From Faecalicatena contorta (GTDB taxonomy: Bacteria; Bacillota; Clostridia; Lachnospirales; Lachnospiraceae), in contig NZ_JAFBIZ010000002.1 in NCBI RefSeq assembly GCF_021531995.1, positions 1 to 64,000 of the forward strand: DNA of 64,000 nucleotides, read 5' to 3'. Under the pieces are notes generated by a model that saw only the letters and a program-made list of their open reading frames with translations, was not told where the DNA came from and did no database searches. Numbering within the stretch: position 1 is the first letter of the stretch; every line of letters starts with the position of its first letter. The position numbers and the translations under genes are program-made. Shown piece by piece: positions 22,598 to 52,254 of the stretch.

Positions 22598-22610
22598 TGT
22601 TTGTTCTCCT

Positions 22611-23162: not shown

Positions 23163-23176
23163 TTTTCCCTCTCCAA

Positions 23177-24070: not shown

Positions 24071-24110
24071 AAAAAACCTCCTAATTAATAATCACTTATT
24101 AACGCAAACT

Positions 24111-24132: not shown

Positions 24133-24139
24133 GTCTGCT

Positions 24140-29560: not shown

Positions 29561-30253
29561 TTATGCTCGTTTTCTAAAGTTCTGAACCAACAATATCGAA
29601 ATCATCATCTTCAGCATATAAGATGCCGATCTCGTCAGATTCAGATAACTTTCTCCAAATTGCCGCTCTTCCATCCTGACCTGAACCTCTGATACTTTTG
29701 CTCCATTTTTCAAAAGATATGACACGGTATCCGGTTCTGGTCCATAATTCAAATTCTTAGCAAACTCCTCTATCATCGGTTTTGAGAACATTCTCATTCC
29801 AGAGGTCGGATCAGAGATTCTGACCCCCGTCGTCATCTTAATTGCTACAGTTAACATTCTGCTTCCGATCATTCTAAGCGATCCACTCTTACGTTCATTC
29901 ACAAATCTGGAACCGATTACAATGTCATACCCTTCCTTAATCCGTTCCAGCATAGGTTTAATAAATTCCGGTCTGTGCTGTCCGTCTGCATCAAACTGTA
30001 TTGCATAAGAATAATTCTGTTTATGTGCATACTTCAGACCTGCCTGAAACGCACCCGCCAGTCCAAGATTGACCGGAAGATCTAATAGCTCATATCCTTT
30101 TTCCCGACATATTTCTGCTGTACGATCTTTGGATCCATCGTTTACAACAATATAATCATATTGTGAATATTTTTCCCTGATAAAATTTACTACATTTTCA
30201 ATATTCTCTTCTTCATTATAAGCAGGAATAATAATTAGTAATTCTTTTTCCAT
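29561..30253 (-). CDS. GacI/DPM1-like family 2 glycosyltransferase (polyprenyl-phosphate sugar synthase)
   Basis: A 230-residue GT2 enzyme. LLIIIPAYNEEENIENVV, IVVNDGSKDRTAEICR, PVNLGLAGAFQAGLKYA, AIQFDADGQHRPEFI and VIGSRFVN are hallmarks of enzymes that make polyprenyl-phosphate sugars. Only a short hydrophobic C-terminus is present (YMLKMMISILLVQNF), so it probably relies on the DUF2304 partner for membrane tethering, as GacI does on GacJ. The start overlaps the LicD stop by one base (TAATG). The sugar is unknown; GlcNAc is the precedent. Confidence 0.88.
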   Translation of the reverse strand: MEKELLIIIPAYNEEENIENVVNFIREKYSQYDYIVVNDGSKDRTAEICREKGYELLDLPVNLGLAGAFQAGLKYAHKQNYSYAIQFDADGQHRPEFIKPMLERIKEGYDIVIGSRFVNERKSGSLRMIGSRMLTVAIKMTTGVRISDPTSGMRMFSKPMIEEFAKNLNYGPEPDTVSYLLKNGAKVSEVQVRMEERQFGESYLNLTRSASYMLKMMISILLVQNFRKRA

Positions 30254-31125
30254 TACCTTGCTTCTCCTTCATCTCCAAACTCTAAGATATATGGACAGTG
30301 GTTCACTCTCTTTTCCGGCGGCGGAACCTGCATATAATCTCCAAACAACCGTCTCAGATAAGTATCATAGTCATTCGGCATATTTACCATCAAATGCTCA
30401 AACGGCATCTTCTTAAGTGGATACAACTCTTTTTCTGAAATATATGCTTTATGAGACATCGTAACTTCGAATGCATTGATATATTTCGAAGGTTCATGAT
30501 TATATCTTGTTGCCTCCCGAATCAGACATTTATATAAAAACCTTGGTGAAACATGAAGTATCTTCAATCCATAATGCGCAATCGCACAAATCACAGACGC
30601 GATCTGCTTCTTATATCCTTCTAATGGAATAATCGGCGTCGGTGTGCCACACAAAAAAATCAGTTTATTCAAAATCCATGTTTTTTTCAACTGTTTTTTT
30701 CTTTTTTTCGGATCATCCGGCATATGATCTAACGGAAAAATATCTATGTCAATGCATAGATCGCACTTCATCTTTCGAGATGTGTATGGTACAAATTTCG
30801 TTCCTTTTTTCTGAAGATGTGTAACATTACATGCGTAATTTTTATCAACAAGAGGTGTAAGAATCTTATATTTATCACCCATCTCCGATTCCATTATTTC
30901 CATAAATCTGTCATAATCTTCTCTAGGCATTGCGACATCAATGTCATCATCCCACGGAATAAAGCCCTGATGACGAACAACTCCAATTCCAGTACCTCCA
31001 AGCATAAAATATGTCAGATCATATTTCTCACACACTTTAATATAGTCCTCCAGAATCTCCGTCTGGACTTTCTGTAGTTTTTTCAATACTTCCGGCTCAT
31101 ATTCCTTATATTCCGCATTTTTCAT
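30253..31125 (-). CDS. licD: LicD-family phosphotransferase
   Basis: A 290-residue protein. The LicD core is YFMLGGTGIGVVRHQGFIPW directly followed by DDDIDVAMPREDY, the metal-binding acidic cluster. LCIDIDIFPLDHMPDD follows in the second half of the domain. LicD enzymes move phosphocholine from CDP-choline to wall or lipopolysaccharide glycans; others in the family transfer different phospho-alcohols. ATG 31125 is chosen because AGAGG lies 7 nt upstream; an upstream start at 31167 overlaps the preceding gene. It lies between a GT4 and a GacI-like GT2 gene. With licA, licC and a choline-type transporter in the same window, phosphocholine transfer is the likely role. Confidence 0.88.
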   Translation of the reverse strand: MKNAEYKEYEPEVLKKLQKVQTEILEDYIKVCEKYDLTYFMLGGTGIGVVRHQGFIPWDDDIDVAMPREDYDRFMEIMESEMGDKYKILTPLVDKNYACNVTHLQKKGTKFVPYTSRKMKCDLCIDIDIFPLDHMPDDPKKRKKQLKKTWILNKLIFLCGTPTPIIPLEGYKKQIASVICAIAHYGLKILHVSPRFLYKCLIREATRYNHEPSKYINAFEVTMSHKAYISEKELYPLKKMPFEHLMVNMPNDYDTYLRRLFGDYMQVPPPEKRVNHCPYILEFGDEGEAR

Positions 31126-31129
31126 CTGG

Positions 31130-32308
31130 TTACCTCTTACACACTTTCTGTATATTACTTTTTTCACATATTGTTTCTACCTGTTTTGCCGCAATCTCCC
31201 ATGTAAAACAGTTCTTCAGCCTCTGATAGGTCAGTTCCACTGCTTTTTTTCGATGTTCCGGATTATGAATTGCCTTTTCCAATGCAGGAAGAAGATTTTC
31301 CTCTTTATTATCCGGAATTACACTTCCATACGCATCATTGATCAACAACTCTTTGGCACCGCCCCTGGCCGTTGTTACAACATAACACTGACATGCTGCC
31401 GCTTCCAGAATAGATGTGGAAAATCCTTCTGAAAAAGACGGAAGGCAGAAAATATCTGTCTCATTCAGCAAAGATACGACCTTCTCAAAATCAATCCTTC
31501 CAAGTGGAATAATATGCTCTGTTTTTCTTCTTCTCACTTCTTCTTCCAGATCTCCATCACCTGCGATAAAAAGATAGACATCTTTTCTTTTTTTGCATAT
31601 CTCTTCCACCACATTCAAAAGACTTGGCAAGCCTTTTTCCTCCAGAAGTCTTCCGGTAAATGAAATTACAGTTGCATCCTCCGGGATATGATATTTTTCA
31701 CGAAAAACAGGAACTGCATTGTTCCTGATTGTTCGAATATCTTCCAGATCAATCGAATTATATACTACTCCTCTTGCCTGGATATGAAAATGTCGGAGCC
31801 ACTGATTACAGGCCTCTGATACTCCATAATAATTCTTACAAAACAAGCGGTCAACCCTTGTCAACATATGCTCAAACACACCACCCACGGTATCCCAGAA
31901 GCGACTGTGCACTGAAAGATGACTGGTTCCATGTTCCACTGTTATGCATGGACATTTTTTTCTCTTTGCTAAAATCATTCCATATAACGAATGAGGATAA
32001 AATCTGGTATTTACCAAAAACATATCAAACTTTTCTCTTTTCAGTCTCCTGTGAATCTTCCAGAATTCTTTATTAGGTTTCAGCACCGGATACCTTCCCT
32101 CCAGCAAGTTAAAACAAGGAACACGATAAACCAGAATTCCATCCATCCGCTCACTTGCAGGAAGATGATAGATATTAGATGTAACCACTACTACCTCATT
32201 TCCATCCTTTATCAATTGCTTTGACAGATTATAGGTATAACGCTCTACACCTCCCATATGCGGAAGATACTGGGCCGAAAATATACAATATTTTTTTCCG
32301 TTACTCAT
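31130..32308 (-). CDS. Family 4 glycosyltransferase
   Basis: A 392-residue GT-B enzyme. The N-terminal acceptor domain begins IFSAQYLPHMGGVERYTYNL (glycine loop). The donor domain has VISFTGRLLEEKGLPSLLNV, FIAGDGDLEEEV and PSFSEGFSTSILEAAACQCY with the conserved ExxxxxxxE motif of GT4. The donor and the linkage are not readable. ATG 32308 has AGAAGG 9 nt upstream and overlaps the flippase gene by 8 bp. It probably builds a side chain or the repeat unit handled by the adjacent flippase. Confidence 0.88.
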   Translation of the reverse strand: MSNGKKYCIFSAQYLPHMGGVERYTYNLSKQLIKDGNEVVVVTSNIYHLPASERMDGILVYRVPCFNLLEGRYPVLKPNKEFWKIHRRLKREKFDMFLVNTRFYPHSLYGMILAKRKKCPCITVEHGTSHLSVHSRFWDTVGGVFEHMLTRVDRLFCKNYYGVSEACNQWLRHFHIQARGVVYNSIDLEDIRTIRNNAVPVFREKYHIPEDATVISFTGRLLEEKGLPSLLNVVEEICKKRKDVYLFIAGDGDLEEEVRRRKTEHIIPLGRIDFEKVVSLLNETDIFCLPSFSEGFSTSILEAAACQCYVVTTARGGAKELLINDAYGSVIPDNKEENLLPALEKAIHNPEHRKKAVELTYQRLKNCFTWEIAAKQVETICEKSNIQKVCKR

Positions 32309-33569: not shown

Positions 33570-33965
33570 TTACTTTGATACCTTCAGATCTTTCTTGATC
33601 TGAGTTGTAGAAATCTCCGGAGTTCGCGGAAGATAGACAACCTCACACTGTTCTTTTAAGAAATCAAACTTGCCTTCCCAGTCATCTCCCATCACAAAAG
33701 TATCCACATGATACTCTTTTACATCCGTTACTTTCTGTTCCCATCCTTCTTCCGGAATAACCAGATCTACATAACGGATTGCTTCCAGCAGTTTCTTTCT
33801 CTCTTCATATGTAAAATAGCATTTTTTCTGTTTTTCATTCCAGTTAAATTCATCCGTAGACAGAGCAACAATCAGATAATCCCCATACTGTTTGGCTCTG
33901 CGAAGCAGATTAATATGTCCATAATGAAGCAGATCAAATGTTCCATAAGTAATTACTCGTTTCAT
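33570..33965 (-). CDS. tagD: Glycerol-3-phosphate cytidylyltransferase
   Basis: A 131-residue enzyme making CDP-glycerol from CTP and glycerol-3-phosphate. VITYGTFDLLHYGHINLLRR holds the HxGH nucleotidyltransferase motif. STDEFNWNEKQKKCYFTYEE, MGDDWEGKFDFL and the ISTTQIKKDL end match TagD/TarD over the full length. It overlaps the upstream LicD gene by 4 bp (ATGA) and has a GGAGG site. No TagB/TagF-type glycerophosphotransferase is in the window, so the user of CDP-glycerol is unclear; a neighbouring LicD-family enzyme is a candidate. Confidence 0.95.
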   Translation of the reverse strand: MKRVITYGTFDLLHYGHINLLRRAKQYGDYLIVALSTDEFNWNEKQKKCYFTYEERKKLLEAIRYVDLVIPEEGWEQKVTDVKEYHVDTFVMGDDWEGKFDFLKEQCEVVYLPRTPEISTTQIKKDLKVSK

Positions 33966-34813
33966 GATTCATCCTCCTCAAACTTTAAAATATACGGATA
34001 ATGGTTCTGGCGCTTCTCCGGCGGTGGAAGCTGCATATAATCCCCATACATCGCCCGCAGAATCTGGTCGTAATTCGCCGGTACTTTTACCATAATATCT
34101 TCAAACGGAAGCTCAACCAGATGTTCCAGTTCACTTAGATTGATTGCGCTCTCCTCGATCATAGTATCATTAAACTGTGTCACCACAGATGACTTTCCGT
34201 TATAACGTGTTGCATTTTCTTTCCATTTTTTACAGAGATATTCATTCGAAACTGGAAGCAGATTTAACAGATAGTGCAATGCTCCACATGTGAGACGCTT
34301 GAAAAGTTTCCCTTTTTTATGTACCGTACTCACATAAAAGTTAACATTCTTCATCATATAGATACTTCGAAGCATCATGGAACGTCGGATCTGTTTCTTC
34401 CTCTCTTTCGCATCTTCTGCAAGACCGTCAAAGACAAAAATATCTATATTGATCCCCATATTAAAATTACCATGATCGTAGATCGTTGCAAATCTTGTTC
34501 CTTTTTTATAAAACTTACTGACAAAATTATAAAACTTTTCCGGACGGTCCGGACCTGCAATCTCATAGTGTCCCTCTATTTCTTTCGGAGCAACTCTTAA
34601 GAATTTCTCATATTCTTCTCTGAGCATTCCAAAATCCATATCATCATCCCACGGAATAAACCCATGATGACGGACAACTCCGATATTCGTTCCAAATACT
34701 GCAAAATACTGAATATCATATTTATTACAGATTCTTACAAATTCCTTTAAAATTCCCAGTTCTTCTTCCTGAATCCTTTTCAGAACTGCCGGATCATACT
34801 GTTTGTATCCCAT
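33962..34813 (-). CDS. licD: LicD-family phosphotransferase (second copy)
   Basis: A 283-residue protein. The LicD core reads YFAVFGTNIGVVRHHGFIPW followed by DDDMDFGMLREEY, and INIDIFVFDGLAEDAKERKK matches the second block. It differs from the copy at 30253-31125 by FGTN instead of GGTG in the first glycine loop. That may mean a different donor or acceptor. It is the first gene of the run and is coupled to tagD by a 4-bp overlap, so CDP-glycerol is a plausible donor besides CDP-choline. AAAGGAAG precedes the ATG. Confidence 0.87.
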   Translation of the reverse strand: MGYKQYDPAVLKRIQEEELGILKEFVRICNKYDIQYFAVFGTNIGVVRHHGFIPWDDDMDFGMLREEYEKFLRVAPKEIEGHYEIAGPDRPEKFYNFVSKFYKKGTRFATIYDHGNFNMGINIDIFVFDGLAEDAKERKKQIRRSMMLRSIYMMKNVNFYVSTVHKKGKLFKRLTCGALHYLLNLLPVSNEYLCKKWKENATRYNGKSSVVTQFNDTMIEESAINLSELEHLVELPFEDIMVKVPANYDQILRAMYGDYMQLPPPEKRQNHYPYILKFEEDES

Positions 34814-34970: not shown

Positions 34971-36209
34971 TTATTTTGTTTTTCCCGGAATCCATCTGCC
35001 GGATTCATCCACATAATAATTGCCAATCCAGGTATCTTTCTTCAAGACTCCGCTGGCATTAAAGTAATAATCATAGCCTTCTATTTTCTGCCAGCCCGTC
35101 AGCATTGCTCCACTGGATGGATTCAGATAATAGGTATTCCCTTTTTCATCCGTTGACCAGCCTGTCACCATGACTCCAGTTTCGGCATCCAGGAAGTACC
35201 ATACGTTATTTACTTTCTGCCAGCCCGTCTGAAGATATCCGCTTCCATTAAAATAATACCACTCATCATCAATCTTCTGCCAGCCCGTCAGCATTGCTCC
35301 ACTGGACGGATTCAGATAATAAGTATGTCCTCCTTCCGGCAGCCAGCCTGTCACCATAATTCCGGTAGATGGATCCAGATAATACCATTTACCGCCAATC
35401 TTATTCCACTCTGTTACCATCGCTCCGTTTCCCGAGAAATAATACCAGGAACCACCAAGCGACAGCCAGCCGGTCACCATTGCTCCTGTAGATAGATCCA
35501 GGAAATAAACCTTATCACCAATTGGTGTGAACCCGGTTCTCTGCACATTCCCGTCTTTAAAGTAATAATACGTTCCATCAATAGACACCCATCCGGAATC
35601 TACTGCTCCATTCACAGAAAAATACATGCTGAGTCCATTGTATGTATACCATCCCACATAAAGAGATCCATTTGAATTAAACCGGTAAAGCACGCCTGCA
35701 ATCTCTGCTATGCCTTCTGTCTCGCCAAATATCTTTCCGCTGTACATGAACCCCTTTCCAGATTCCACATTAGCAGCTTCGTGAAAGTAGTACCATTTAC
35801 CGTCAATCTTCTTCCATCCGGTAACCATTGCCCCGGAACTGTCAAAATAATACCAGATATTACCTCCGGCATTATACCATCCGGTCTTCATTCTTCCATT
35901 TGCATCAAAATAATAAGTAGATCCACCGATCGTCAATGTGCTGTTCTTCACATGTTGTCCGTTGGTCTGAAGAAAATACCAGTAACCGCCGGATTGTACC
36001 CATCGTCCATTCACTGTCACACTTTGCAGCGTCTCCGGAATCTGTATCTCTTCCACGATCTCTCCTGCAGTTTCTATCGCTGTCTCCATCTCCTGTTTTG
36101 CAGAAGTATCCTGTACATTTTCCGCAGAAACGGTCATTGGAATCAGCACAGTCGCTAACACAGCTGCCATCATACTTCTCACTTTTTTACCAATCTTCTT
36201 CCCTGCCAT
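34971..36209 (-). CDS. Secreted choline-binding-type repeat protein without an enzyme domain
   Basis: A 412-residue protein. A signal peptide (MMAAVLATVLIPMTVSA) is followed by a short Glu/Thr linker. From about residue 65 to 405 it is all wall-binding repeats (consensus GWxxxxGxWYYFxxxxGxMxTG). No catalytic domain is visible. Some repeats form a higher-order block of three units: the DNA near 35091 and 35280 is almost identical at a distance of 189 bp. It could be a structural surface protein, an adhesin or a competitor for the same ligand. It is the last gene of the run coming from the esterase and muramidase genes, 31 bp after the muramidase. Confidence 0.85.
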   Translation of the reverse strand: MAGKKIGKKVRSMMAAVLATVLIPMTVSAENVQDTSAKQEMETAIETAGEIVEEIQIPETLQSVTVNGRWVQSGGYWYFLQTNGQHVKNSTLTIGGSTYYFDANGRMKTGWYNAGGNIWYYFDSSGAMVTGWKKIDGKWYYFHEAANVESGKGFMYSGKIFGETEGIAEIAGVLYRFNSNGSLYVGWYTYNGLSMYFSVNGAVDSGWVSIDGTYYYFKDGNVQRTGFTPIGDKVYFLDLSTGAMVTGWLSLGGSWYYFSGNGAMVTEWNKIGGKWYYLDPSTGIMVTGWLPEGGHTYYLNPSSGAMLTGWQKIDDEWYYFNGSGYLQTGWQKVNNVWYFLDAETGVMVTGWSTDEKGNTYYLNPSSGAMLTGWQKIEGYDYYFNASGVLKKDTWIGNYYVDESGRWIPGKTK

Positions 36210-36240: not shown

Positions 36241-37872
36241 TTATCTGTTTTGGCATCTTCCATCCGCTCCAAACTCATAAGATACTCCCTCTATTGTCTG
36301 AATCCCCGTTGTCATCGCCCCGTTTGCATACAGATAATAGGTTCCATCATCCAGTATCAGCCAGCCGGTCATCATCTTTCCATCTGTGTCCAGGTAATAC
36401 CATTTGCCGGATGACTTGATCCAGCCGGTTGCCATTGCCCCGGAGGTTCTGAAATAATACCAGATTCCGTCTATCTTCCTCCAGTCGGTAACCATCGCTC
36501 CGTTTTCATCGCAATAATATGTAATCCCGTCTACCGGATTCCAGCCCGTAACCATTGCCCCGTCAGCTCCCAGATAGTACCATTTACCGGACGACTTGAT
36601 CCAGCCCGTGATCATTGCCCCGTCAGCTCCCAGATAATACCATTTACCGGACGACTTGATCCAGCCCGTGACCATCGCGCCGGAACTATTAAAGTAATAC
36701 CAGATTGCATCAATCTGTTTCCATCCAGTAGCCATCATACCATTTTCTGACAGATAATACCAGATTCCATTTTGCCGGATCCAGCCCGTGGCCATGTATC
36801 CCCGGCTGTCAAACCAATACCAGCTTCCTCCGATTTTTTCCCATTTATTTGCAGGATATCCGCCTTTCAGATACTGGTACCACAAGCCGGTTCCATCTTC
36901 TCTCCAGATACCGGTTCGATAATAATATCCGGATACAGCCTCGCTTCTCGGTGTGATCACATCGGTATAATCTACATACCCAAAATCAATATCCACATTG
37001 CCGTAGATACCATTCACGCGTCCTGTACTGCAGCACTGCCAGATATCTCTGGAAATCGAATCATCATATGTATAGCTGTATCTTGCAATCCACCGTGTCA
37101 CATCCGGCATCTGATTCATGTCGATATTGTTCGTATACCAGTATTCGTTACAATAAAGCATCGGCGTATATCCTGCCAGACGGATCTCATCACAGAATGC
37201 TTTCGCGATCTTTCCGATCTGCGTCTTTCCGAGTCCGATCAGTGAAGAATCTTCAAGATCAATAACAACCGGATATGATACCGTATATCCGGACAGATTT
37301 TTAATTACGAATTGTGCATCCAGAATCGCCTGACTCTCACTCTTGGCCATACTGTAATAATAGACTCCGACCGGAAGCCCGACCTGATTCGCACTTTTTA
37401 TATTCTTCTGATAATAAGTATCCAGTTTCTGACTTCCATATCCAAGCCGGATAAAGGCATATTCTATCCCATCATTCTTTACAGCCTGCCAATTGATGTC
37501 TCCCTGCCACTGTGATACATCAATCCCCTTGATGGTTCCCTCTTCATGGCTGTTATCCTCTACCAGATATCCATTTGCATCAAAATAATACCACAGACCA
37601 TCTATTTTTCTCCATGAACTGACCGGATAACTGCCGTCACTATACTCATACCACTTTCCCGTTTCATTTTCTTTCCAGCCTGCCAGGGATCTTGCCTTCC
37701 CTGCATCTGCTGCCACTTTTCCGTCTGTATCCTCAACCTCTTTTCCCAGAGACGATCCCGCCGTCTGCGTTTCCATCTGTGCATTTACCCTCAATGTAAC
37801 AGCTCCCATCAAAAAGAAACAGAAAAAAAGACCGCCAAGAGTTTTCCATATTATCCGCTTTACGTTCTTCAT
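36241..37872 (-). CDS. GH25 muramidase (lysozyme) with choline-binding-type repeats
   Basis: A 543-residue secreted protein. A signal peptide is followed by one wall-binding repeat and then a GH25 domain (about 110-310): IKGIDVSQWQGDINWQAVK, YAFIRLGYGS, GVYYYSMAKSESQA, VVIDLEDSS with the catalytic acids, YTPMLYCNEYWY and IWQCCSTGRVNGI with DIDFGYVDY. The rest (about 320-540) is repeats. GH25 enzymes cut the glycan backbone of peptidoglycan. The layout matches phage and pneumococcal choline-binding lysozymes (Cpl-1 class) except for the extra repeat at the front. AAGGGG precedes the ATG. It is 36 bp downstream of the esterase gene. Confidence 0.94.
   Translation of the reverse strand: MKNVKRIIWKTLGGLFFCFFLMGAVTLRVNAQMETQTAGSSLGKEVEDTDGKVAADAGKARSLAGWKENETGKWYEYSDGSYPVSSWRKIDGLWYYFDANGYLVEDNSHEEGTIKGIDVSQWQGDINWQAVKNDGIEYAFIRLGYGSQKLDTYYQKNIKSANQVGLPVGVYYYSMAKSESQAILDAQFVIKNLSGYTVSYPVVIDLEDSSLIGLGKTQIGKIAKAFCDEIRLAGYTPMLYCNEYWYTNNIDMNQMPDVTRWIARYSYTYDDSISRDIWQCCSTGRVNGIYGNVDIDFGYVDYTDVITPRSEAVSGYYYRTGIWREDGTGLWYQYLKGGYPANKWEKIGGSWYWFDSRGYMATGWIRQNGIWYYLSENGMMATGWKQIDAIWYYFNSSGAMVTGWIKSSGKWYYLGADGAMITGWIKSSGKWYYLGADGAMVTGWNPVDGITYYCDENGAMVTDWRKIDGIWYYFRTSGAMATGWIKSSGKWYYLDTDGKMMTGWLILDDGTYYLYANGAMTTGIQTIEGVSYEFGADGRCQNR
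36541..36660 (-). repeat. Two nearly identical 60-bp wall-repeat units
   Basis: The 60-bp blocks 36541-36600 and 36601-36660 differ at only three positions, while other repeat units in the same gene differ much more. Each encodes one 20-residue unit. This indicates a recent in-frame unit duplication. Confidence 0.9.
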
Positions 37873-37908: not shown

Positions 37909-40143
37909 CTATGCTTTATCCGGAATCCATGCGCCTGATACATCCAGATAAAATCCATTAATCCACACATCATATGCCATCACTCCGTCCGAATAAAAGT
38001 AATAATAGTTTCCGTCGATATAGTTCCAGTCTTTTGCCATCGCCCCGTTCTTCTGAAAGTAATACGTCTTCCCATTCCACGGAAACCATCCGGTCATCAT
38101 CCTTCCGGACTCATCAAAATAATACCAGCATTGATTAATCATCTTCCAACCGTTGCAATACATCTCCCCGGATTCCAGCAGATAATACCAGAAGCCATTG
38201 CTTTTCTGCCAGCCAGTCACCATCCAGCCTTCTGAATCAAAATAATAATACTTTCCGTCAATGGATTCCCAGCCGGATCTGGTATAGCTCCCATCTCCAT
38301 GCCGATACCACCATCTGCCACCGGATAACAGCCATTCGTTCTTCGCCGCATTCGGTATCCATACTCCAGAGGCATCTACATAGCTGTTTCCGATCCATGT
38401 GCCGGAAGCCATGATACCACTGTCATACATATAATACCACTTACCACCGATCTTCTGCCAGCCGGTCACCATCCAGCCATTCTCATCAAAATAATACCAG
38501 TGCCGGCTCAGATATTTCCAGCAGCTTACACTCAGTGTTCCATCCGCTGTATAGTAGCTCCAGTGTCCTTCATTTCTCACCCAGCCGGATGGAATATATC
38601 CCGGTATCACAGCACCGTCTTCTCCCAGATATACCCCTTCCATCATCGTATTTTTCTGCATGACTCCAGACTCATCAAAATAATATCTTTTGCCGTTCAA
38701 TGTCTTCCAGCCGATGCAAAGTCTTCTGGTATAAGGTTCCGCATAATACCAGTTATCGTTCTCCTGGATCCATCCGGTCTGGCTCAGTCCTCCATACCGG
38801 TCAAAATAAAACCATCTGCCGGCTGCCTCATGCGCTCCCTGTGGAAGCGTCCGGCCATTCTTATCAAAATAATACCAGGTGCCATCGATTCGCTGCCATC
38901 CCGGTGTCAGTTCTGTATATTCTGTCTGTATTCCCTCTGCTGTAAACGTGGCAATGACCGAAGCAGAATCAGAATTGGTCGCATACATCTGTGCATCCGG
39001 AAGGCAGGATCTTTCACGTATACTGATACTGTCTATGCTGTTGGTAACCACCACGGTTTCCGGATTCAGAGAAGTCAGGAAATACGTAGTATTATTATAG
39101 TCTATCGCATGGTGGCACATTTTCATCAGATCCAGCGTAATTGTGGTTCCTGTGTTCGGCCATGCCTCATTGATCATATCATTGATTCCCTGCAGTGCAA
39201 AAATATCCTCCAACAGTTCTTCTTTATAGCCTTCCATCATCTCCTCTGCCTGGTCGGAACGATCATCCGGATTATCCCTTATATCATCATCCGGCTGCTC
39301 CTCGGTTCCATTCTCTTCTATATCCGGAACCGGATCCTGATTCGAATTGGTGTCTTCCAGCTCATCGATCAACTGAAGTGCAATCTTAATACTGTCACCG
39401 TCCGTCGGTTCCAGATCTGAAGTCAGCAGCGCAACCCTTCCATAAGCTTCCACTTTTACAACCAGGCTGTTAAGATTCTCACTTGATACCGGAACAATAT
39501 TACCCTCTTCATCGCGAAACCTCTCATAATTCATGATATCAATTGACATATCACCCATAGTGAAGGACCGTTCATTCGCATGCTCCTCCAGATCCAGATC
39601 TGTAATAATCTCGGCACCGGTCTCTTTTGCGGCATGAATCAGGCAATCATATACATATTGATTATCCCACAGGCGATACTCCTTTGCATCCGATACATAA
39701 TAAGGATCATTTTTATCTCGCCCATGTGCATCCAGCATATAAGAGTCATCATATCTTCCAATATATAATCTGTCTGTCGGAAAATGCCTGAGTATCTCAT
39801 CCCCTGACCCGATATGGTCACTGTGAGCATGTGTCGCAATATAAAAATCCAGCTTTTTTACTCCCAGCTGTTCCAGATAATGAATTACCTGCTGCTCATA
39901 TCCCAAATTTGTCGTCACGCCATACCGAAGCGGATAATCTGTGCCGTCCGGATAATCCCAGTCCTCACCAGAATCCACCATGCCATAATGTCCGTTACTT
40001 TCCAACAGTATGGCATCCGTAGCACTGTTCAGTGATATAAAGTGAATCCGAGTCTCCTCTCCGGCTGCTTCCACTTGCCTGGAATTGCACAGAAAAAGAA
40101 TTGCCATCATCATCAAAAGCACATATCGCTTTCTACAATTCAT
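37909..40143 (-). CDS. pce: Pce/CbpE-like phosphorylcholine esterase with choline-binding-type repeats
   Basis: A 744-residue secreted metallo-beta-lactamase-fold enzyme. After the signal peptide, RIHFISLNSATDAILLESNG and MVDSGEDWDYPDGTDYP match the start of pneumococcal phosphorylcholine esterase Pce (CbpE) as I know it. ATHAHSDHIG (His105, His107, Asp109, His110), LTSDLEPTD (Asp243) and MKMCHHAIDYN (His344/345) would bind the two zinc ions. An acidic low-complexity insert (about 260-305) splits the domain and is not expected in Pce. Wall-binding repeats fill about 405-744. Pce removes phosphocholine from wall teichoic acid ends. ATG 40143 is chosen on AAGAGG spacing. Other beta-lactamase-fold hydrolases are possible, but the tag and context fit Pce best. 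Confidence 0.85.
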   Translation of the reverse strand: MNCRKRYVLLMMMAILFLCNSRQVEAAGEETRIHFISLNSATDAILLESNGHYGMVDSGEDWDYPDGTDYPLRYGVTTNLGYEQQVIHYLEQLGVKKLDFYIATHAHSDHIGSGDEILRHFPTDRLYIGRYDDSYMLDAHGRDKNDPYYVSDAKEYRLWDNQYVYDCLIHAAKETGAEIITDLDLEEHANERSFTMGDMSIDIMNYERFRDEEGNIVPVSSENLNSLVVKVEAYGRVALLTSDLEPTDGDSIKIALQLIDELEDTNSNQDPVPDIEENGTEEQPDDDIRDNPDDRSDQAEEMMEGYKEELLEDIFALQGINDMINEAWPNTGTTITLDLMKMCHHAIDYNNTTYFLTSLNPETVVVTNSIDSISIRERSCLPDAQMYATNSDSASVIATFTAEGIQTEYTELTPGWQRIDGTWYYFDKNGRTLPQGAHEAAGRWFYFDRYGGLSQTGWIQENDNWYYAEPYTRRLCIGWKTLNGKRYYFDESGVMQKNTMMEGVYLGEDGAVIPGYIPSGWVRNEGHWSYYTADGTLSVSCWKYLSRHWYYFDENGWMVTGWQKIGGKWYYMYDSGIMASGTWIGNSYVDASGVWIPNAAKNEWLLSGGRWWYRHGDGSYTRSGWESIDGKYYYFDSEGWMVTGWQKSNGFWYYLLESGEMYCNGWKMINQCWYYFDESGRMMTGWFPWNGKTYYFQKNGAMAKDWNYIDGNYYYFYSDGVMAYDVWINGFYLDVSGAWIPDKA

Positions 40144-40575: not shown

Positions 40576-43512
40576 TTACGGTGTCATACCAGGAACCCAT
40601 TTTCCGGATTCATCCACATAATATCTTCCCTGGTCAACCCATTGTCCTGTTGCCATGACACCATCTTCAAGCAGATAGTAATTGCCTACCCATTTGCCGG
40701 TCACTTTTTTTCCACCGGAAGTAAAGTAATAATAATCTTCACCGATTTTCTGCCAGCCCATTGCCATTGCTCCGCCACTCTTCAGATAATACGTATCTTC
40801 CAGCCATTCTTGTTCGAGCATAATGCCCGTGGACGGTTCAAAGTAATACCAGACACTTCCGATCTTCTGCCAGCCGATCAATCTCGCACCGCTGCTGTTC
40901 AGATAATACCACTTATCATCCAGTTTGAGCCAGCCCGTTGCCATCGCTCCGTCGCTCTCCAGATAGTAGTTACTTCCATTCAGTACCAGCCATTCATGTT
41001 CAAGCATGACCCCGGTTAACGGATTCAGGTAATACCACTTCCCTCCCGAACTGAGCCAGCCGGTCACTCTGACTCCGCTTCCATTCAGATAATACCAGCC
41101 TTCTTCCAGTTCCAGCCAACCTGTTGCCATCGCTCCGCTACTATTCAGATAATACTTCTTTCCTCCCAGTTCCAGCCACTGCTCTTCATACATAATTCCA
41201 GTCTCCGGGTCAAAATAGTACCAGATATTTTTGATTTTCTGCCATCCTTCCATACGATATCCGGAAGCGCTGAAGTAATACCAGCTGCCATCAATCTGCA
41301 TCCAGCAGCTTGTCGGATAAGTTCCGTCCGGATTCTCATACCACCAGCCTTTGGAATTCTGTTTCCACTCACTGCCCGGGAGTTTCGGAATACTCTGAAT
41401 CTCTTCATCGCCACATTTGCTGCACACACGTTTCTTATATCCTTCTTCCGCAGTCGTTGCTTCTTTTACCGTCTGCCATTCCCCATATGCATGTCCTGTT
41501 GCAGAAATCGTTTCCGTTCTGGTGATTCCGCAGTCCCTGCACGTGAAAGTCTTTTCACCGTCCGCCGTACACGTCGCTTCTTCGGTCACCTTTCCACTGT
41601 CCCAGCTGTGTTCCTTCATCGGAATCTCTCTTGCCGAGTTCTCCTTCACTTCATCACACACGCTGCAGTGGATGCTCTCGCTTCCCACTGCCGTACATGT
41701 CGCTTCCTGATCTATGGTATATTCCTCATTCCAGATATGACCGGTCGCTTCGATCTTTTCTATCCGGGTCTTTTTGCAGACTGTACAGGTATAGGTCTTT
41801 TCGCCGTCCGCCGTACACGTTGCTTCCGTAGTCACCCTTCCACTGTCCCAGCTGTGTTCTTTCATCGGAATCTCTCTTGCCGAGTTTTCCTTCACTTCAT
41901 CACATACGCTGCAGTGGATGCTTTCGCTTCCGGCTTCGGTACACGTCGCTTCCTGATCTATGGTATATTCCTCACTCCATGCATGAGACACTGTCAGATC
42001 ATACAGCCTGGATCTTGCAATGATCTCTCCATCAGAAACTGCCGCAACAGAATATCGCAATACCCATTCATGACCTTCCAGCACTTCCGGCTCACAGTCA
42101 CTTCTGATATCATCCCAGGAATACAAGAAACTGCATTTGGCAGAAGTTCCGATCAGATCTCCCCATACCGGCGTCCCGTCTTCCATTGCTTCTGCAACGC
42201 TGATGTGGTAACTGTCTGCCCCGTCTACAGCACCCCAGGTGATTTCTGCCCCGTTTTCTGTAAGTACTGCTTTTATGCTGGTAACTTCAGGTAATTCTGT
42301 AACATTTACTGTACACTGTGCCAGTCTTCCGGCGGCCTTGGCCGTAATCACTGCCTGGCCGACCCCGACAGCTGTCACGGTTCCCTGTCCGTCTACGACA
42401 GCCACCGTCTCATTACTGCTGCTCCATGTAACGCTCTCTCCTTCTCCGGAACCATCCGGTTCTATCGCTACCGCCAACGTATCGATATCTCCTGTCCGTA
42501 ATTCAAGAGCCGTTCTTTCCAGTGTCATTCCGGTTACTGCATAGGCCGTATCCGCAAGCGCATAGGAACTTAAAAATGCACTCTCCGGTGTGTGTCCACT
42601 AAAATCAGAGGTTCCTTTCAAAAAATAACGGTAAGTTTTATTGCCCGCATCCCAGGTAGAATCCAGATAATAATATCTGGAGCCCAGTTTCACAATATTC
42701 CATCCATGCGCTCCCCCGCCTCCGGTGCCGGAGACCAGTCGTGTATCCACCCCTGCATCTTCCATCATCCGGTAGACCAGAGCCGCATATCCCTGGCAGA
42801 CTGCCGTCTTATGAATCAGTGCCGCATATGCGGTATATTTCAGCTTATATGTATCATCATCCAGATTGTCATAATCATAGGTAACATTGCTGCAGATATA
42901 GTCGTAGATCTTTTTTACTTTGTCATAATCCGCCATACCGGCATCCCTGACTCCAAGTTCTGCCAGAAGCGATGTCAGTGCTGCATCCAATTCCGCTTCC
43001 TGCTCTGCAGTCGTATAATACGTCATGTTAATCGTATATGTATAGTACCACATCCCCTGAGAGGAAGAATAAGAAATACTGGCTTTGTATCCCGCATAGG
43101 TCCAGCGGAGATAATCCCCTGCATGCGAATCCTCCGTTTCTGCCATTGCCAGTTCTACCCAGCTTTTCAGCTTCGTATTATCATATTCCTGTTCGGACTT
43201 ATAATATACAGTAATGATACTTTCCCGCTGAATCATATTTTCACGAATGATAGATGCAATATTCTGAACACTTTCATCCGTCTCGTATTCCGGTTCTGCA
43301 TATGTCGCGATTCCATTTTCTGCAGTGGCCGTCAGATCCTCTTCGCTGACCACATCCTGATAAATGGGGTTGACATACGTCTCCTCTACAGTCCCTGCCC
43401 GTGATTCATCCGGCTCTGCCGCATGCACCACGAACTGTCTTGTCATCCCCCACCAGCTGCCTAATATGAACATCACAGTTACAAGCAGCAGCGCCAACAC
43501 TCTCTTTCTCAT
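40576..43512 (-). CDS. Transglutaminase-like surface protein with Ig-like domain, CxxC repeats and choline-binding-type repeats
   Basis: A 978-residue secreted protein. A signal peptide leads to an N-terminal region and a transglutaminase-like fold (about 140-310). Its catalytic set is visible: Cys in TAVCQGYAALVYRMMEDAGV, His in GGAHGWNIVKLG and Asp in YYLDSTWDAG. A Big_2-type Ig-like domain follows (LELRTGDIDTLAVAIEPDG to TAKAAGRLAQCTVNVTE, about 335-410) and then a fibronectin-like stretch. Next come CxxC-containing repeats (IHCSVCDEVKENSAREIPMK; YTCTVCKKTR) and about 300 residues of wall-binding repeats. The active site may be a protease, a cross-linker or inactive. ATG 43512 is chosen because GGAGG lies 7 nt upstream. 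It has its own promoter with a dyad over the -35 element. Confidence 0.88.
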   Translation of the reverse strand: MRKRVLALLLVTVMFILGSWWGMTRQFVVHAAEPDESRAGTVEETYVNPIYQDVVSEEDLTATAENGIATYAEPEYETDESVQNIASIIRENMIQRESIITVYYKSEQEYDNTKLKSWVELAMAETEDSHAGDYLRWTYAGYKASISYSSSQGMWYYTYTINMTYYTTAEQEAELDAALTSLLAELGVRDAGMADYDKVKKIYDYICSNVTYDYDNLDDDTYKLKYTAYAALIHKTAVCQGYAALVYRMMEDAGVDTRLVSGTGGGGAHGWNIVKLGSRYYYLDSTWDAGNKTYRYFLKGTSDFSGHTPESAFLSSYALADTAYAVTGMTLERTALELRTGDIDTLAVAIEPDGSGEGESVTWSSSNETVAVVDGQGTVTAVGVGQAVITAKAAGRLAQCTVNVTELPEVTSIKAVLTENGAEITWGAVDGADSYHISVAEAMEDGTPVWGDLIGTSAKCSFLYSWDDIRSDCEPEVLEGHEWVLRYSVAAVSDGEIIARSRLYDLTVSHAWSEEYTIDQEATCTEAGSESIHCSVCDEVKENSAREIPMKEHSWDSGRVTTEATCTADGEKTYTCTVCKKTRIEKIEATGHIWNEEYTIDQEATCTAVGSESIHCSVCDEVKENSAREIPMKEHSWDSGKVTEEATCTADGEKTFTCRDCGITRTETISATGHAYGEWQTVKEATTAEEGYKKRVCSKCGDEEIQSIPKLPGSEWKQNSKGWWYENPDGTYPTSCWMQIDGSWYYFSASGYRMEGWQKIKNIWYYFDPETGIMYEEQWLELGGKKYYLNSSGAMATGWLELEEGWYYLNGSGVRVTGWLSSGGKWYYLNPLTGVMLEHEWLVLNGSNYYLESDGAMATGWLKLDDKWYYLNSSGARLIGWQKIGSVWYYFEPSTGIMLEQEWLEDTYYLKSGGAMAMGWQKIGEDYYYFTSGGKKVTGKWVGNYYLLEDGVMATGQWVDQGRYYVDESGKWVPGMTP
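41548..42000 (-). repeat. 246-bp direct repeat encoding CxxC modules
   Basis: Within the transglutaminase-like gene a block recurs at a spacing of 246 bp (for example, identical sequence begins at 41601 and 41847). It encodes an 82-residue unit containing the two CxxC modules. The copies are nearly identical, differing at scattered positions, so the duplication is recent or kept uniform by recombination. Outer limits are approximate. Confidence 0.8.
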
Positions 43513-43550
43513 GATCATTCCTCCATCCTGGTTTTTATTCCACTGCCTCT

Positions 43551-43793: not shown

Positions 43794-46385
43794 TTATTTA
43801 ACCCATATTCCACTTCCTGTGAACCAGTATTTCTTTCCATTAATGGTTCTTTCACCGGTATACAGGCGTCCGCTGGAAGATGCATAATACCAGTATCCAT
43901 CTACTTTTGCCCATCCGCCTTTTACCATTGCGCCGCTGCCATCAAACAGATAGAATTCAATTCCTGTATAGAGCATACCTGTCCACATACATCCATTGTT
44001 AAAGTAATATGCTTTGCCTCCTATCGTTTTCAGTCCTTCTGCCGGATTTCCGTTTTCAAAATAGTACCAGACTGTTCCATAATCATCCTTCACAGAATAC
44101 CATCCTGTCTTTACCTCTGTCATGACACCGTCACTTCTGAAGAATCTATGGCCACTCAGTTCTGATACCCAGACATAACCTGTCTTCATCTCCGGATCCA
44201 GATAATACTGCTTTCCGTCAATCGTCTGAAGTCCGGTCTGCTGCTCTCCGTTTTTATAATAGTACCAGGAACCATCAATTTTCTGCCAGCCGTTCTTCAG
44301 ATCTGTTCTTACTCCGGAAGCATTGATATAGTATTCTTCTCCTGTATCTTCGTCATACCAGAACATATCGGAAACCATCACCCCATTCCCATCGAAATAA
44401 TAGGTGACATTGTTAATCTCCAGCTTTGCTTCCTGATTCAAAGTTCCGTCTTCATTAAAGTAATACCAGTCTCCCGTACGGGTTTTCTTCCATGCCTTTT
44501 TCCCCTTGATCTCACCGAGATAATATCCGGAAGAATCAATATCATATAATTTTCCTTCATCAACGATCGGATAGGTTGCAAGTGTATAATAATCCGTGAA
44601 ATAATACCATTTTCCATTAATCGTCTTCCATCCCTCATCCGCGATGAGTTTTCCGGTGGCAGGATCTGCATAAAACCATTCACCATATGGATTCTTGATC
44701 CAACCCTTCATGATCTCACCGTCATATCCGACATAATAACATCCGTCATCAGAATCGACAATCATATTCGTCGCCATAGCACCATTCATAATATAATATC
44801 TGTCCTGCAGCCATCCACTGTACGGTTCTCCATCCTCCGTCCGGTAATACCATGTTCCGTCTGCGAGCTCCCAGCCTGCTTTTGCTCCAAGCTTCTTAAC
44901 CAGTGCTCCGTTATCAGAAAAGAGATAGGACTCTCCTTCAATCTCATATACACCGGTCACCATCTCGCCATCCCAGTCAACATAGTATTTATGATTGTCT
45001 ACCCACTGTTCGGTCAGTCTTCTTCCCTGTTCATCTGTACGATACCAGCTAAGTCCAAAGCGCACCCAATCATTCATTACAAGCGCACCTTTGGCATCTG
45101 TCATATACACTTCTCCGTCATACCAGCACATGCCCTGGTCCATGACACCAGCATAGTTAAAGAGGTATTTCTTGCCGCCAATCTCATATAGACCATCTGT
45201 ATACAGATTACCGTCTTCCCCGATATAATACCATTCACCACCGGTCTGCACCCATCCGGTCTTCTGAATAATCACTCCGTCCGAGTCTGCAAGAAGCCAT
45301 ACATCATCATAATCTTCCTCTTCTTCGTTCCAGATCGATACTACAAAAGAACCGGTCTGCATGATGCCCTGCCAGTCAAAATAATACTGTTTTCCTTTAT
45401 CAGCCACGGTCTCGCTGCTGGCAATCCGATTGTCCTCAAAGAAATAATACCAGTCCTTCGTTTCCGGTGACTGATACCAGCCTTTTGCATGCTTGATGAT
45501 TGCGCCGTTACTGTCAGTAAGGTATGGTCTTTCCCCACTGATCCTGATCACACCGATCTGCAGCTCACCATTCCAGCCAAAATAATAGTCCTTACCGTCA
45601 ATCGTTTTTGTCTCATCACAGACATATGAACCATCTTCATAATAATACCATGCGCCGTTGATCATCTGCCAGCCGTTCAGATCTGCATCGTCAACAACCG
45701 CCAGTACCCCATCCTCATCTGCATAATAGAGTACGTCACCAATCATCACATTGCCGTTTCTGACCAGATATCCATTGGTATTAAAATAATAGGAATTGCC
45801 GTCTTCTTCAAGCACTTCACTTTCATACCGGAAGAAATCTTCTCCGTAATATTGATATTCCTCCTCATATTCATCATAATACCAGCCGGTAATCAAGATT
45901 CCATCTTCAGCTGATCTGATATATCCGCCTTTTTCTGTATCTTCATTCCAGTAATAAACATCCCCGTTCACCATCAACGTTCCGTCAGACCAGAAGTAAT
46001 ACCAGTCTCCTTCAATCTGGTACATGGTGTCTTCCAGCATTACGCCGTCCACGTAATAATACCGGTATCCGTCTTCTTCATACCAGCCCGTCTCCGGAAT
46101 CCCCACGTCAGTTCCTCCGTCTGATACAACCGCCGGATCCTCAGATTCTGTCTCTTCTATCGTCTGTTCCGCTTTGGTCTCCTCTTCCTCCGCTGTCGCT
46201 TCTTCAGACAGTTCCACTTCTTCTGTTACAGTCTCCTGAACATCTTCTGTTACAGTCTCCTCCTGAACCACTTCTTCCTGTACTGCATCATCAGACACGC
46301 TGTCCTGTGCCAATGCAGGCGTTACGGAACTTACCGATAATGCCATAATGCTGAAAAGTGCAACCAGCTTTTTTCTTTTTATCAT
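43794..46385 (-). CDS. Large secreted choline-binding-type repeat protein without an enzyme domain
   Basis: An 863-residue protein. A signal peptide (LVALFSIMALSVSSVTPALA) is followed by an acidic Glu/Val/Thr linker (about 25-90). Nearly all of residues 95-863 is degenerate wall-binding repeats. They vary more than in the neighbours, with many units carrying acidic inserts such as YYDEYEEEYQYYGEDFF. No catalytic domain is seen. ATG 46385 is preferred because AGGAGG lies 7 nt upstream. It diverges from the plus-strand repeat gene at 46593. Its role may be structural or adhesive; it could also be a scaffold of unknown ligand. Confidence 0.83.
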   Translation of the reverse strand: MIKRKKLVALFSIMALSVSSVTPALAQDSVSDDAVQEEVVQEETVTEDVQETVTEEVELSEEATAEEEETKAEQTIEETESEDPAVVSDGGTDVGIPETGWYEEDGYRYYYVDGVMLEDTMYQIEGDWYYFWSDGTLMVNGDVYYWNEDTEKGGYIRSAEDGILITGWYYDEYEEEYQYYGEDFFRYESEVLEEDGNSYYFNTNGYLVRNGNVMIGDVLYYADEDGVLAVVDDADLNGWQMINGAWYYYEDGSYVCDETKTIDGKDYYFGWNGELQIGVIRISGERPYLTDSNGAIIKHAKGWYQSPETKDWYYFFEDNRIASSETVADKGKQYYFDWQGIMQTGSFVVSIWNEEEEDYDDVWLLADSDGVIIQKTGWVQTGGEWYYIGEDGNLYTDGLYEIGGKKYLFNYAGVMDQGMCWYDGEVYMTDAKGALVMNDWVRFGLSWYRTDEQGRRLTEQWVDNHKYYVDWDGEMVTGVYEIEGESYLFSDNGALVKKLGAKAGWELADGTWYYRTEDGEPYSGWLQDRYYIMNGAMATNMIVDSDDGCYYVGYDGEIMKGWIKNPYGEWFYADPATGKLIADEGWKTINGKWYYFTDYYTLATYPIVDEGKLYDIDSSGYYLGEIKGKKAWKKTRTGDWYYFNEDGTLNQEAKLEINNVTYYFDGNGVMVSDMFWYDEDTGEEYYINASGVRTDLKNGWQKIDGSWYYYKNGEQQTGLQTIDGKQYYLDPEMKTGYVWVSELSGHRFFRSDGVMTEVKTGWYSVKDDYGTVWYYFENGNPAEGLKTIGGKAYYFNNGCMWTGMLYTGIEFYLFDGSGAMVKGGWAKVDGYWYYASSSGRLYTGERTINGKKYWFTGSGIWVK

Positions 46386-46529
46386 TCCCATTCCTCCTAA
46401 CTATTACAAATAATCTGCACTATCAATTATACAAATCATACCATTTATTAAATATTTATACAATACTTTTCCCTTCTGCTGTATTAAAAGGGATTTCGGA
46501 TTATTCCTTCCTTTTTTCTGATATTTTAA

Positions 46530-46592: not shown

Positions 46593-47876
46593 ATGAAAAA
46601 CTATCAAAAACAATTACTGTCATTATTTCTGGCTCTGACATTAACCTGTGCGGCTCCTCTCACAGCACTTGCCGCAGATGCAGATGCAGATACAGCTGAA
46701 GATGCGAATGTACAGGCAGAAGTGTCTGTTTCAGAAGATGACAGTCAGGAACAACCGGATACGGATATTACAGATGAGGCGGACGTTTCTGATACAGAGG
46801 TAATTCAGGAATTCCCGGAAGATAAAGCCTCTTCACCAACAGAAGAAGCGAATGCTGCAGATAATAAAGATATCTCCGTTCCGGAATCTGAGAGCGGTTC
46901 TGTTACGGAAGAATCCGAAGCTCCGGTACTCTTTGATTCCGGAAGCGGATACTGGCGTCACAACAGCAATGGATACTGGTTCGAAATCATTGGCGGCGGA
47001 TATCTGTGCAATAACATCTATACCATTGATGGTGTTACTTATGCCTTTGACTCCAGAGGATATATGGTGACCGGCTGGTTCAAATTCGAAGGTCTGTGGT
47101 ACTACTTTGACAGCAACGGAGCACAACACCGGGGATGGCTCAATGACGGTGGAAAATGGTACTATCTGGATCCGAATACAGGATATGGCTATGCAATGAT
47201 TGCAAATGGACGTTACGAGATCAGCGGCAAGATCTATTGCTTCCGTTCAGACGGGTCCATGGTCATCGGCTGGTATCAATTCTCAGAAGGGTGGCGCTAC
47301 TACAACAGCAATGGTTATGAATGCACCGGCTGGATAAAATCCGGCGGAAAGTGGTACTATATGATTCCGAACAGTAACGCGGTATATGCCAACCTGATGC
47401 AGAAAGAAGGATGGCGTAATCTCGGCGGAAAGACATATCACTTTAATAAAGATGGTTCCATGACCGTTGGGTGGTACTACTCATCTTATTATAAAGCTTA
47501 CTTCTATTATGACAGTGACGGTGCCGAGCACTCCGGATGGCTCAAATCCGGTGGAAAATGGTATTATCTGAATCCGGACGCTCTCAATGCCATGGCATGC
47601 AATGGATGGTTGACGATTAACGAAAAGTACTATTACTTTACAGAAACCGGCGCCATGGTAACCGGCTGGGGAAAGATAGAAACGAGTACAGGTACAAAAT
47701 ATGTTTATCTGGATGTCCCGAATGGTAATCTGGTATTCGGCTGGAAGAAGATCAATTACAAATGGTATTATTTCGATCCAAACAACAACGGTTTCATGGT
47801 AACCGGCTCTCTTCTGATCGACGGACGCATCTGCGTCTTTGATTCTAACGGTGTATGGCTTGGATATGCCAACTAA
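46593..47876 (+). CDS. Secreted choline-binding-type repeat protein on the plus strand
   Basis: A 427-residue protein. A signal peptide (LLSLFLALTLTCAAPLTALA) precedes an acidic Asp/Glu/Ala/Ser linker (about 29-112). Wall-binding repeats then run to the C-terminus (GYMVTGWFKFEGLWYYFDSN; GWLKSGGKWYYLNPD). No enzyme domain is visible. It is one of two plus-strand genes in the window, with its own strong promoter and terminator, so it is a single-gene unit. Its repeats belong to the same family as those of eight other proteins in the window. Confidence 0.87.
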   Translation: MKNYQKQLLSLFLALTLTCAAPLTALAADADADTAEDANVQAEVSVSEDDSQEQPDTDITDEADVSDTEVIQEFPEDKASSPTEEANAADNKDISVPESESGSVTEESEAPVLFDSGSGYWRHNSNGYWFEIIGGGYLCNNIYTIDGVTYAFDSRGYMVTGWFKFEGLWYYFDSNGAQHRGWLNDGGKWYYLDPNTGYGYAMIANGRYEISGKIYCFRSDGSMVIGWYQFSEGWRYYNSNGYECTGWIKSGGKWYYMIPNSNAVYANLMQKEGWRNLGGKTYHFNKDGSMTVGWYYSSYYKAYFYYDSDGAEHSGWLKSGGKWYYLNPDALNAMACNGWLTINEKYYYFTETGAMVTGWGKIETSTGTKYVYLDVPNGNLVFGWKKINYKWYYFDPNNNGFMVTGSLLIDGRICVFDSNGVWLGYAN

Positions 47877-49515: not shown

Positions 49516-50391
49516 TTATTTTTCCTCCATTACACGCAGTTTTCCAGTTCCATAATCATATGTGTAGGAATCATTCCGGTATCTGAAGCAAACCCCCGCT
49601 GCCTGATTTCCTTTTTTTACCGGTGCAAATCCATAAAGATCCTTTTCTTCACATTTCAACCGTTCTGCGATCGTCTCCATGATATGACATCCTGATGACG
49701 TCAGGTACTCGGGCACCTGCTCTCTTAATTCTTCAAAACTGTCAAATTCCAGCACATTTCCATCATCTTCCCGCCTCTCATACAGTACCATTTCCTGTAT
49801 ATGTTCCAGATAAAGATCTTCCCAGTAGGTATCTGCTGCCTTTGGATCTTCAAACGCTTTCTCCAGAAGCGGAATCAGCTGTCCTGAAAATCTTTCATCA
49901 AATAATACAATACCCTGCATGACCCAGGCATCCTTGCCTCCGATCACAACCTCTGTAATCTTCCCTTCTGAATCCGAAAAGACACACCATTCATCCGTTT
50001 TTCCCTGCTTGTACATGGTCGTATAATATGGCCGTTCTTCTTCCCTGCAAAATGGGTTCTCACGAAAATAATAATCACTGCAGGATATATAAGTATTCTT
50101 CAGCTTTTCTTTTGCCACATACAGACTGGAATGATTATTTTTTTCCAGATAGTATGGGTTTTCAATTAATGTAACTTTGCATTTTTCTTTCAGATATTCA
50201 AACTGCTCTCTGTGATATCCGACGATTATTGTAATGTCTTCGATTCCTGCTTCCTGAAGCTGTCTGATCTGTCGTTCAATCAGAACCTCTCCATGGATCG
50301 TAAGCAGTGCTTTTGGTTTTTCATACGACAATGGAGCCAGCCTTGTCGACATTCCGGCAGCCATGATGACTGCATTATCTATCTGTATCAT
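49516..50391 (-). CDS. licC: Choline-phosphate cytidylyltransferase with a vestigial kinase lobe
   Basis: A 291-residue protein. Residues 1-230 form a LicC-type nucleotidyltransferase: NAVIMAAGMSTRLAPLSYEK, PKALL, ITIIVGYHREQFEYLKEK, NNHSSLYVAKEKL and CSDYYF. LicC makes CDP-choline from CTP and phosphocholine. The last 55 residues (about 236-290) align with the start of the kinase domain in the adjacent fusion (IAERLKC against IAEVLNC; then VKKG against LKKG, and CFRYRNDSY against QFRCRDKKY). The protein ends there, without the kinase catalytic residues. ATG 50391 has AAGGAG upstream and overlaps the preceding gene by 17 bp. Confidence 0.87.
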   Translation of the reverse strand: MIQIDNAVIMAAGMSTRLAPLSYEKPKALLTIHGEVLIERQIRQLQEAGIEDITIIVGYHREQFEYLKEKCKVTLIENPYYLEKNNHSSLYVAKEKLKNTYISCSDYYFRENPFCREEERPYYTTMYKQGKTDEWCVFSDSEGKITEVVIGGKDAWVMQGIVLFDERFSGQLIPLLEKAFEDPKAADTYWEDLYLEHIQEMVLYERREDDGNVLEFDSFEELREQVPEYLTSSGCHIMETIAERLKCEEKDLYGFAPVKKGNQAAGVCFRYRNDSYTYDYGTGKLRVMEEK

Positions 50392-52141: not shown

Positions 52142-52175
52142 GTTTTTCTCCTTTTTTATTTTCGTGAACAACGGT

Positions 52176-52204
52176 ATTGTAACTCTTTTCTCAGGATAAT
52201 GCAA
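52176..52204 (-). promoter_or_regulatory. Sigma-A promoter of the lic operon
   Basis: On the minus strand TTGCAT (52199-52204), a 17-bp spacer and TACAAT (52176-52181) lie 35 bp upstream of the fusion-gene start. It sits directly after the terminator of the preceding operon, so the lic genes form a separate unit. Confidence 0.72.
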
Positions 52205-52219
52205 GTACTTTACTAAAAA

Positions 52220-52254
52220 AAGAGCCGGGAATGTCTGCTCCATTCCCGGCTCTT
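52220..52254 (-). terminator. Strong terminator after the HPr gene
   Basis: A perfect 14-bp stem (52220-52233 and 52241-52254), GC-rich, with a 7-nt loop is followed on the minus strand by TTTTT. It lies 12 bp after the HPr stop and ends the mreB-to-HPr run. Confidence 0.95.

Follow-up and report, generated by a model that had tools for sequence, protein, structure and literature searches.

Our analysis indicates that the gene at positions 37909-40143 (minus strand) of the 64,000-nt stretch of DNA analysed here (the window) encodes a putative secreted member of the Pce/CbpE phosphorylcholine esterases, which probably trims phosphocholine from the surface of its own cell and would thus be the eraser of a complete local phosphocholine system (probability roughly 0.8). 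The earlier note's claim of a Pce homologue is borne out by sequence, predicted fold, tree and a linked phosphocholine-writing pathway; what we infer is that the enzyme is active on phosphocholine, which polymer it cleaves, and how it affects the docking of wall enzymes and recognition by the immune system.

The longest frame of the gene opens at 40164 (751 aa), but we prefer the ATG at 40143 (744 aa), which is closely preceded by a Shine-Dalgarno-like AGAGG; this agrees with the frame previously read at 37909-40143. Residue numbers below follow the 751-aa form, so that Asp250 and His351 correspond to Asp243 and His344 of the earlier note. The product opens with a putative signal peptide (40063-40143, minus strand; MNCRKRYVLLMMMAILFLCNSRQVEAA), read from the sequence by its basic n-region, hydrophobic core and A-x-A-like end, continues with a catalytic domain of metallo-beta-lactamase fold (38887-40068, minus strand; assigned from sequence, metal ligands, model and structure match), and closes with a choline-binding repeat region (37912-38901, minus strand; Pfam Choline_bind_3/1, with E=1e-49 for Choline_bind_3) of about ten units by motif count, so that the wall-binding repeats noticed earlier do follow the catalytic domain. 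Pfam, the motif count and the N-terminal sequence together thus describe a secreted protein with C-terminal choline-binding repeats. The ORF holds these three parts only, the membrane channel domain of ComEC being absent, and a genome search found a single Pce catalytic domain in the whole genome.

Since the repeats alone also match a clostridial toxin and other repeat proteins, we searched with the catalytic domain alone, as had been proposed. Against solved structures, phmmer placed pneumococcal Pce/CbpE first (1wra, 12qj and 2bib, 2e-43 to 2.5e-42), with 1wra the best match at 2e-43 and a ComEC domain next at 5e-4; moreover, residues 38-258 can be aligned to pneumococcal Pce independently of the repeats, as expected from the suggestion that this part follows the pneumococcal sequence. 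The proposed structure prediction gave the same answer. An AlphaFold2 model built from a 38-sequence alignment (pLDDT 86, pTM 0.87) was ranked by Foldseek nearest to Pce (1.2e-27; ComEC 5.9e-14), and VIA-align superposed it on 2bib with Z=39.0 and an rmsd of 2.2 A over 298 residues at 36% identity, as against Z=25.8 for ComEC, 17.3 for RNase J and 15.9 for RNase Z. A structural placement closer to ComEC or RNase Z, which the earlier note had named as grounds for refutation, was thus looked for and not seen. A tree of 53 rows, in which the pneumococcal Pce row is partial and taken from the structure-search alignment, groups pneumococcal Pce with choline-binding, lic-associated proteins including that of the window in a 25-row clade (98/86), places the short Clostridia relatives without repeats in a separate clade (100/98), and sets the ComEC-like proteins apart in a clade of their own (100/100). 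The weak ComEC matches seen by phmmer and in a profile search are what would speak for a generic nuclease of ComEC or RNase Z/J type, but with Pce far nearer by sequence, fold and tree, and with an ORF that lacks the ComEC membrane part, we give that reading next to no credence and reject a ComEC/RNase Z-type hydrolase.

The metal site appears complete. The zinc motif HAHSDH (residues 112-117; 39814-39831), the Asp250 ligand position (39415-39417; alignment column D218) and the His351-His352 ligand position (39109-39114; columns H319 and H320), all on the minus strand, are invariant across 38 homologues (H112-x-H114-x-D116-H117, D250, H351-H352), including those that carry the insert described below, and D167-N168 of the WDN motif common to Pce is likewise invariant in the 38 sequences; the zinc motifs are thus intact, as the earlier note had it. 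Solved Pce binds two zinc ions (PMC4929436), and from that structure and the fold a binuclear zinc site is predicted for the window protein. The ligands also bear on whether the protein might be a Pce relative that has lost its catalytic activity and been retained as an adhesin at the surface. Choline-binding proteins can act as adhesins, and a long insert does separate two of the metal ligands here, but every ligand is in place and none varies, even within the insert clade, which makes a dead enzyme highly improbable.

That insert (residues 269-340; 39145-39360, minus strand) was recognised by loop comparison, composition and the model; it holds 24 D/E and 3 K/R and is predicted to be mostly disordered, the model showing low confidence and a few helices in this region. 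Between the two ligand positions, Asp and His, an acidic insert of some 45 residues had been called unusual, and it is real, but its size was understated: the whole loop from D250 to the His pair counts 93 residues (29 D/E and 4 K/R, net -25), within which lies a very acidic core of 45 residues with 18 D/E and 3 K/R. At the composition of the rest of the domain, the chance of such acidity in the core is about 4e-4, a value uncorrected for the choice of position. Among the loci listed, the same loop spans 78-94 residues with a net charge of -9 to -16 in four Lachnospiraceae relatives and 15-26 residues in eleven other Pce proteins, and the insert is confined to a clade made up of the window protein and loci L031-L034 (and L012, genome G329). 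In a tree built after removal of the columns with residues in fewer than 30% of rows, and with them the insert itself, the five rows that carry the insert group together as one clade (100/99). The insert, a loop near the active site, is therefore a real feature; the data are consistent with its having arisen once, and it changes rapidly and is probably flexible. It might serve as a built-in regulator that covers or charges the mouth of the active site, or responds to calcium or pH, and so limits which phosphocholine is erased, an idea to which we attach only a slim chance; were it right, the insert clade of Lachnospiraceae would have a tunable level of surface phosphocholine. Other Pce relatives hold up to about 300 extra residues elsewhere, so the fold tolerates insertions, which calls for caution in assigning a function to this one. 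Such longer domains are seen in L018, L020, L023 and L025 (also L039, L040 and L042); the additional residues partly resemble surface Ig-like repeats, and their loop differs from the acidic insert of the window.

The strongest evidence, not mentioned in the earlier note, is that the putative genes for writing phosphocholine lie in the same window, all on the minus strand. A fusion of an HTH domain, a LicC-like cytidylyltransferase and a LicA-like choline kinase (50375-52243; Pfam, with matches to 4r77 at 6e-29 and 1jyk at 2.5e-26) is followed by a stand-alone LicC-like CTP:phosphocholine cytidylyltransferase (49516-50394) and a transporter of the BCCT family (betaine/carnitine/choline; 47988-49514; PF02028 3.6e-130, TIGR00842), and two LicD-family phosphotransferases lie at 33962-34813 (PF04991 1.5e-38) and 30253-31167 (PF04991 9.2e-47), these being the only LicD genes found in a search of the genome. 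By sequence matches, then, LicA, LicC and LicD (twice) of the Lic-1 pathway are all present. The stand-alone LicC matches the pneumococcal CTP:phosphocholine cytidylyltransferase 1jyk at 7e-45, with the next best match at 8e-9, and the kinase part of the fusion matches pneumococcal choline kinase LicA (4r77), for which the residues of the choline pocket and their roles have been described (PMC4364537). Conserved in the window LicA are Thr29, Asp176, Asn181, Asp194, Glu196, Tyr197, Trp251, Trp254 and Tyr268, including the choline cage Y197/W251/W254/Y268; two pocket residues differ, Val178 being Asn and Glu213 being Tyr. The two LicC-type cytidylyltransferases adjoin at 49516-52243, the stand-alone copy being nearer to pneumococcal LicC, and a pair of one fused and one stand-alone LicC recurs in L033, L034 and L063.

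Candidate readers and a candidate carrier surround these genes. In addition to the esterase, the window encodes eight further choline-binding proteins, of which all but one lie on the minus strand: by Pfam a GH25 lysozyme (36241-37872), a protein of repeats only (34971-36209), a transglutaminase-like protein (40576-43518) and two more choline-binding proteins (43794-46391 and, on the plus strand, 46593-47876), and by domain search an amidase (Amidase_3; 13300-16296), an NlpC/P60 endopeptidase (10917-12452) and an L,D-transpeptidase (YkuD; 9162-10901). In the transglutaminase-like protein, a bacterial Ig domain is also present, and a series of repeated segments with cysteines precedes its choline-binding repeats. 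Profile searches placed rmlD, rmlC, rmlA and rmlB for dTDP-rhamnose, an ABC exporter and glycosyltransferases at 16312-25219 (minus strand), a set that is the likely source of the carrier polysaccharide. A TagD-like glycerol-3-phosphate cytidylyltransferase (33570-33965, minus strand; TIGR01518 above cut-off) makes glycerol phosphate a possible LicD donor as well, and a weakly LtaS-like protein of sulfatase fold, encoded among the rhamnose-polysaccharide genes (25301-27253), is a candidate for adding glycerol phosphate. Beyond these genes, an Rfam search of the window gave no RNA regulator match, and anti-phage defence was rejected because PADLOC matches were weak and partial only.

It is these last genes that would favour an esterase of Pce fold whose substrate has shifted, so that it removes another phosphodiester, phosphoethanolamine or glycerol phosphate, from a wall polymer: the TagD-like gene stands in the locus with two LicD genes and the LtaS-like protein, and two residues of the LicA pocket have changed. 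At the same time, the choline kinase cage is mostly conserved, LicC is nearest to a phosphocholine enzyme by a wide margin, the genome encodes 107 choline-binding repeats, and co-occurrence with LicCA is strong (see below), and we therefore regard a shifted substrate as unlikely.

The link between Pce and phosphocholine writing extends across genomes. Pce is carried by 18 of 397 genomes of the family Lachnospiraceae, and 17 of these 18 have a LicCA match (E<=1e-20), compared with 115 among all 397 (Fisher P=4e-9; P=1e-8 when the window's genome is left out; since the genomes are related, these values overstate independence). LicD occurs in 243 of the 397 genomes (link with Pce, P=0.0015) and, being this common in the family, is by itself weak support for a phosphocholine system. 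In a second set, drawn from the GTDB genomes of the locus scan and partly overlapping the first, 22 genomes could be searched; LicCA was matched (E<=1e-10) in all 22 of the Pce genomes listed and LicD in 20 of them, and genomes with repeat-less or ComEC-like relatives had LicCA in 11 of 29 cases. In two congeners that lack Pce, LicCA gave no strong match, and choline-binding repeats number only 5 and 2, as against 107 in the window's genome. Gene order is also kept in Dorea phocaeensis (L033), where LicD - Pce - BCCT - LicC - LicCA fit within some 15 kb, and L034 has LicCA, LicC, BCCT and Pce as direct neighbours. Among the points that count against the main reading are the changes at Val178 and Glu213 of LicA, the TagD-like gene with its alternative LicD donor, and a Pce-bearing genome (G327) without LicCA and LicD matches. 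That genome, 84% complete, has two neighbouring Pce-like genes (L027 and L029), and possibly reflects either another substrate or an incomplete assembly.

Secretion, together with a BCCT importer nearby, would also suit an esterase that scavenges nutrients, releasing phosphocholine from material of the host or the diet, or from other bacteria, instead of from its own surface. We consider this very unlikely, given that the repeats would hold the enzyme on phosphocholine of its own cell, that linkage is to writing genes and not to catabolic genes, and that a search for choline TMA-lyase found nothing above the CutC cut-off in the window's genome or in the 22 other Pce genomes.

Our preferred reading, an eraser acting on the cell's own surface, can be put together as follows. 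Choline would be imported by the BCCT transporter, phosphorylated by LicA and activated to CDP-choline by LicC, and LicD would transfer the phosphocholine onto a rhamnose-containing or teichoic-acid-like polymer, presumably the one with rhamnose that this locus specifies. Choline-binding wall enzymes would then read phosphocholine as an anchor. The C-terminal repeats of the esterase would bind it too, holding the enzyme on its own cell surface, where the predicted dinuclear zinc site would hydrolyse the phosphodiester joining phosphocholine to the surface glycopolymer, so that exposed residues are trimmed. Pneumococcal Pce cleaves about 20% of the phosphocholine residues from the polymer of its own cell (PMC4929436), and in every species surveyed carbohydrate-linked phosphocholine is accompanied by Lic-1 genes (PMC10434233).

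From its placement in the tree, the Pce family is common to Bacillota and Actinomycetota and is not a streptococcal speciality. The description of the window protein as a Pce outside streptococci is thus true but does not make it singular, as, among the matches listed, Pce with choline-binding repeats was found in many Lachnospiraceae, Eggerthellaceae and Actinomycetaceae. The loci were collected by a genome scan with the patterns TH[ASP]HSDHI and WDN..; their counts are lower bounds and not prevalences. Streptococci are absent from them because the patterns cannot match pneumococcal Pce (THTHSDHI, WDNLYGYD). A mobile-element origin was considered and rejected, viral contigs, phages and plasmids having given no full-length Pce and only partial or distant matches, often ComEC-like. 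One PHROG family annotated as a tail protein (phrog_7043) matches residues 84-251 of the 412-aa query (E=1e-14), and 39 phage records (H18-H37 among them), some belonging to Streptococcus, Blautia and Coprococcus phages, carry distant Pce/ComEC-like domains, with identities of about 23-31% for those listed.

The window enzyme, then, belongs to a known family and its insert is a lineage-specific addition; the chief interest is that a lineage of commensal type carries a complete write-read-erase locus, gut commensal status being suggested by the related genomes of Dorea phocaeensis, Blautia and Mediterraneibacter. To our knowledge, the uptake, writing, anchoring and clipping of phosphocholine have been studied almost solely in pneumococcus. 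Phosphocholine is a target of natural antibodies, C-reactive protein and host receptors, and its clipping could tune the immune view of a harmless gut microbe. Together with the Pce relatives in Dorea, Blautia, Mediterraneibacter and Eggerthellaceae, the locus predicts a set of gut Gram-positive species that display and trim phosphocholine, and leads to the testable proposals that anti-phosphocholine immunity is fed and tuned by commensals and not by pneumococci alone, and that choline supply shapes the commensal cell wall. A literature search of incomplete coverage found no account of Pce or phosphocholine decoration in Lachnospiraceae, a weak negative, and Lachnospiraceae are absent from a systematic survey of phosphocholine-expressing species published in 2023 (PMC10434233).

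Among known systems, the metallo-beta-lactamase domain of ComEC (9ic4) has the next-nearest fold (Z=25.8), but its sequence similarity is far lower (5e-4), it falls in a separate clade, and the window protein lacks its membrane domain. The closest relatives compared, from Dorea phocaeensis (L033), Blautia sp. Marseille-P3201T (L032), a Mediterraneibacter MAG (L031) and a Lachnospiraceae MAG (L034), are Pce proteins with repeats at 52-58% identity to the window protein, with an insert at the same position and with lic genes nearby in three of the four; the sequence and charge of the insert vary, that of the window being the most acidic (net -25). The Lic-1 system (LicABCD) of Haemophilus, pneumococcus and others shares LicA, LicC and LicD homologues with the window, which differs from it in the HTH-LicC-LicA fusion, in the second, stand-alone LicC, and in a BCCT transporter where the choline permease LicB would be. 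Pneumococcal Pce itself (Pce/CbpE/LytD, the teichoic acid phosphorylcholine esterase of Streptococcus pneumoniae; 2BIB, 1WRA, 12QJ) likewise has a signal peptide, a metallo-beta-lactamase-fold domain with the same metal-ligand motifs, and C-terminal choline-binding repeats, whereas in the window protein some 75 further acidic residues separate the Asp ligand from the His ligand, and its gene belongs to a Lachnospiraceae genome, where lic genes and a locus for a rhamnose polysaccharide adjoin it.
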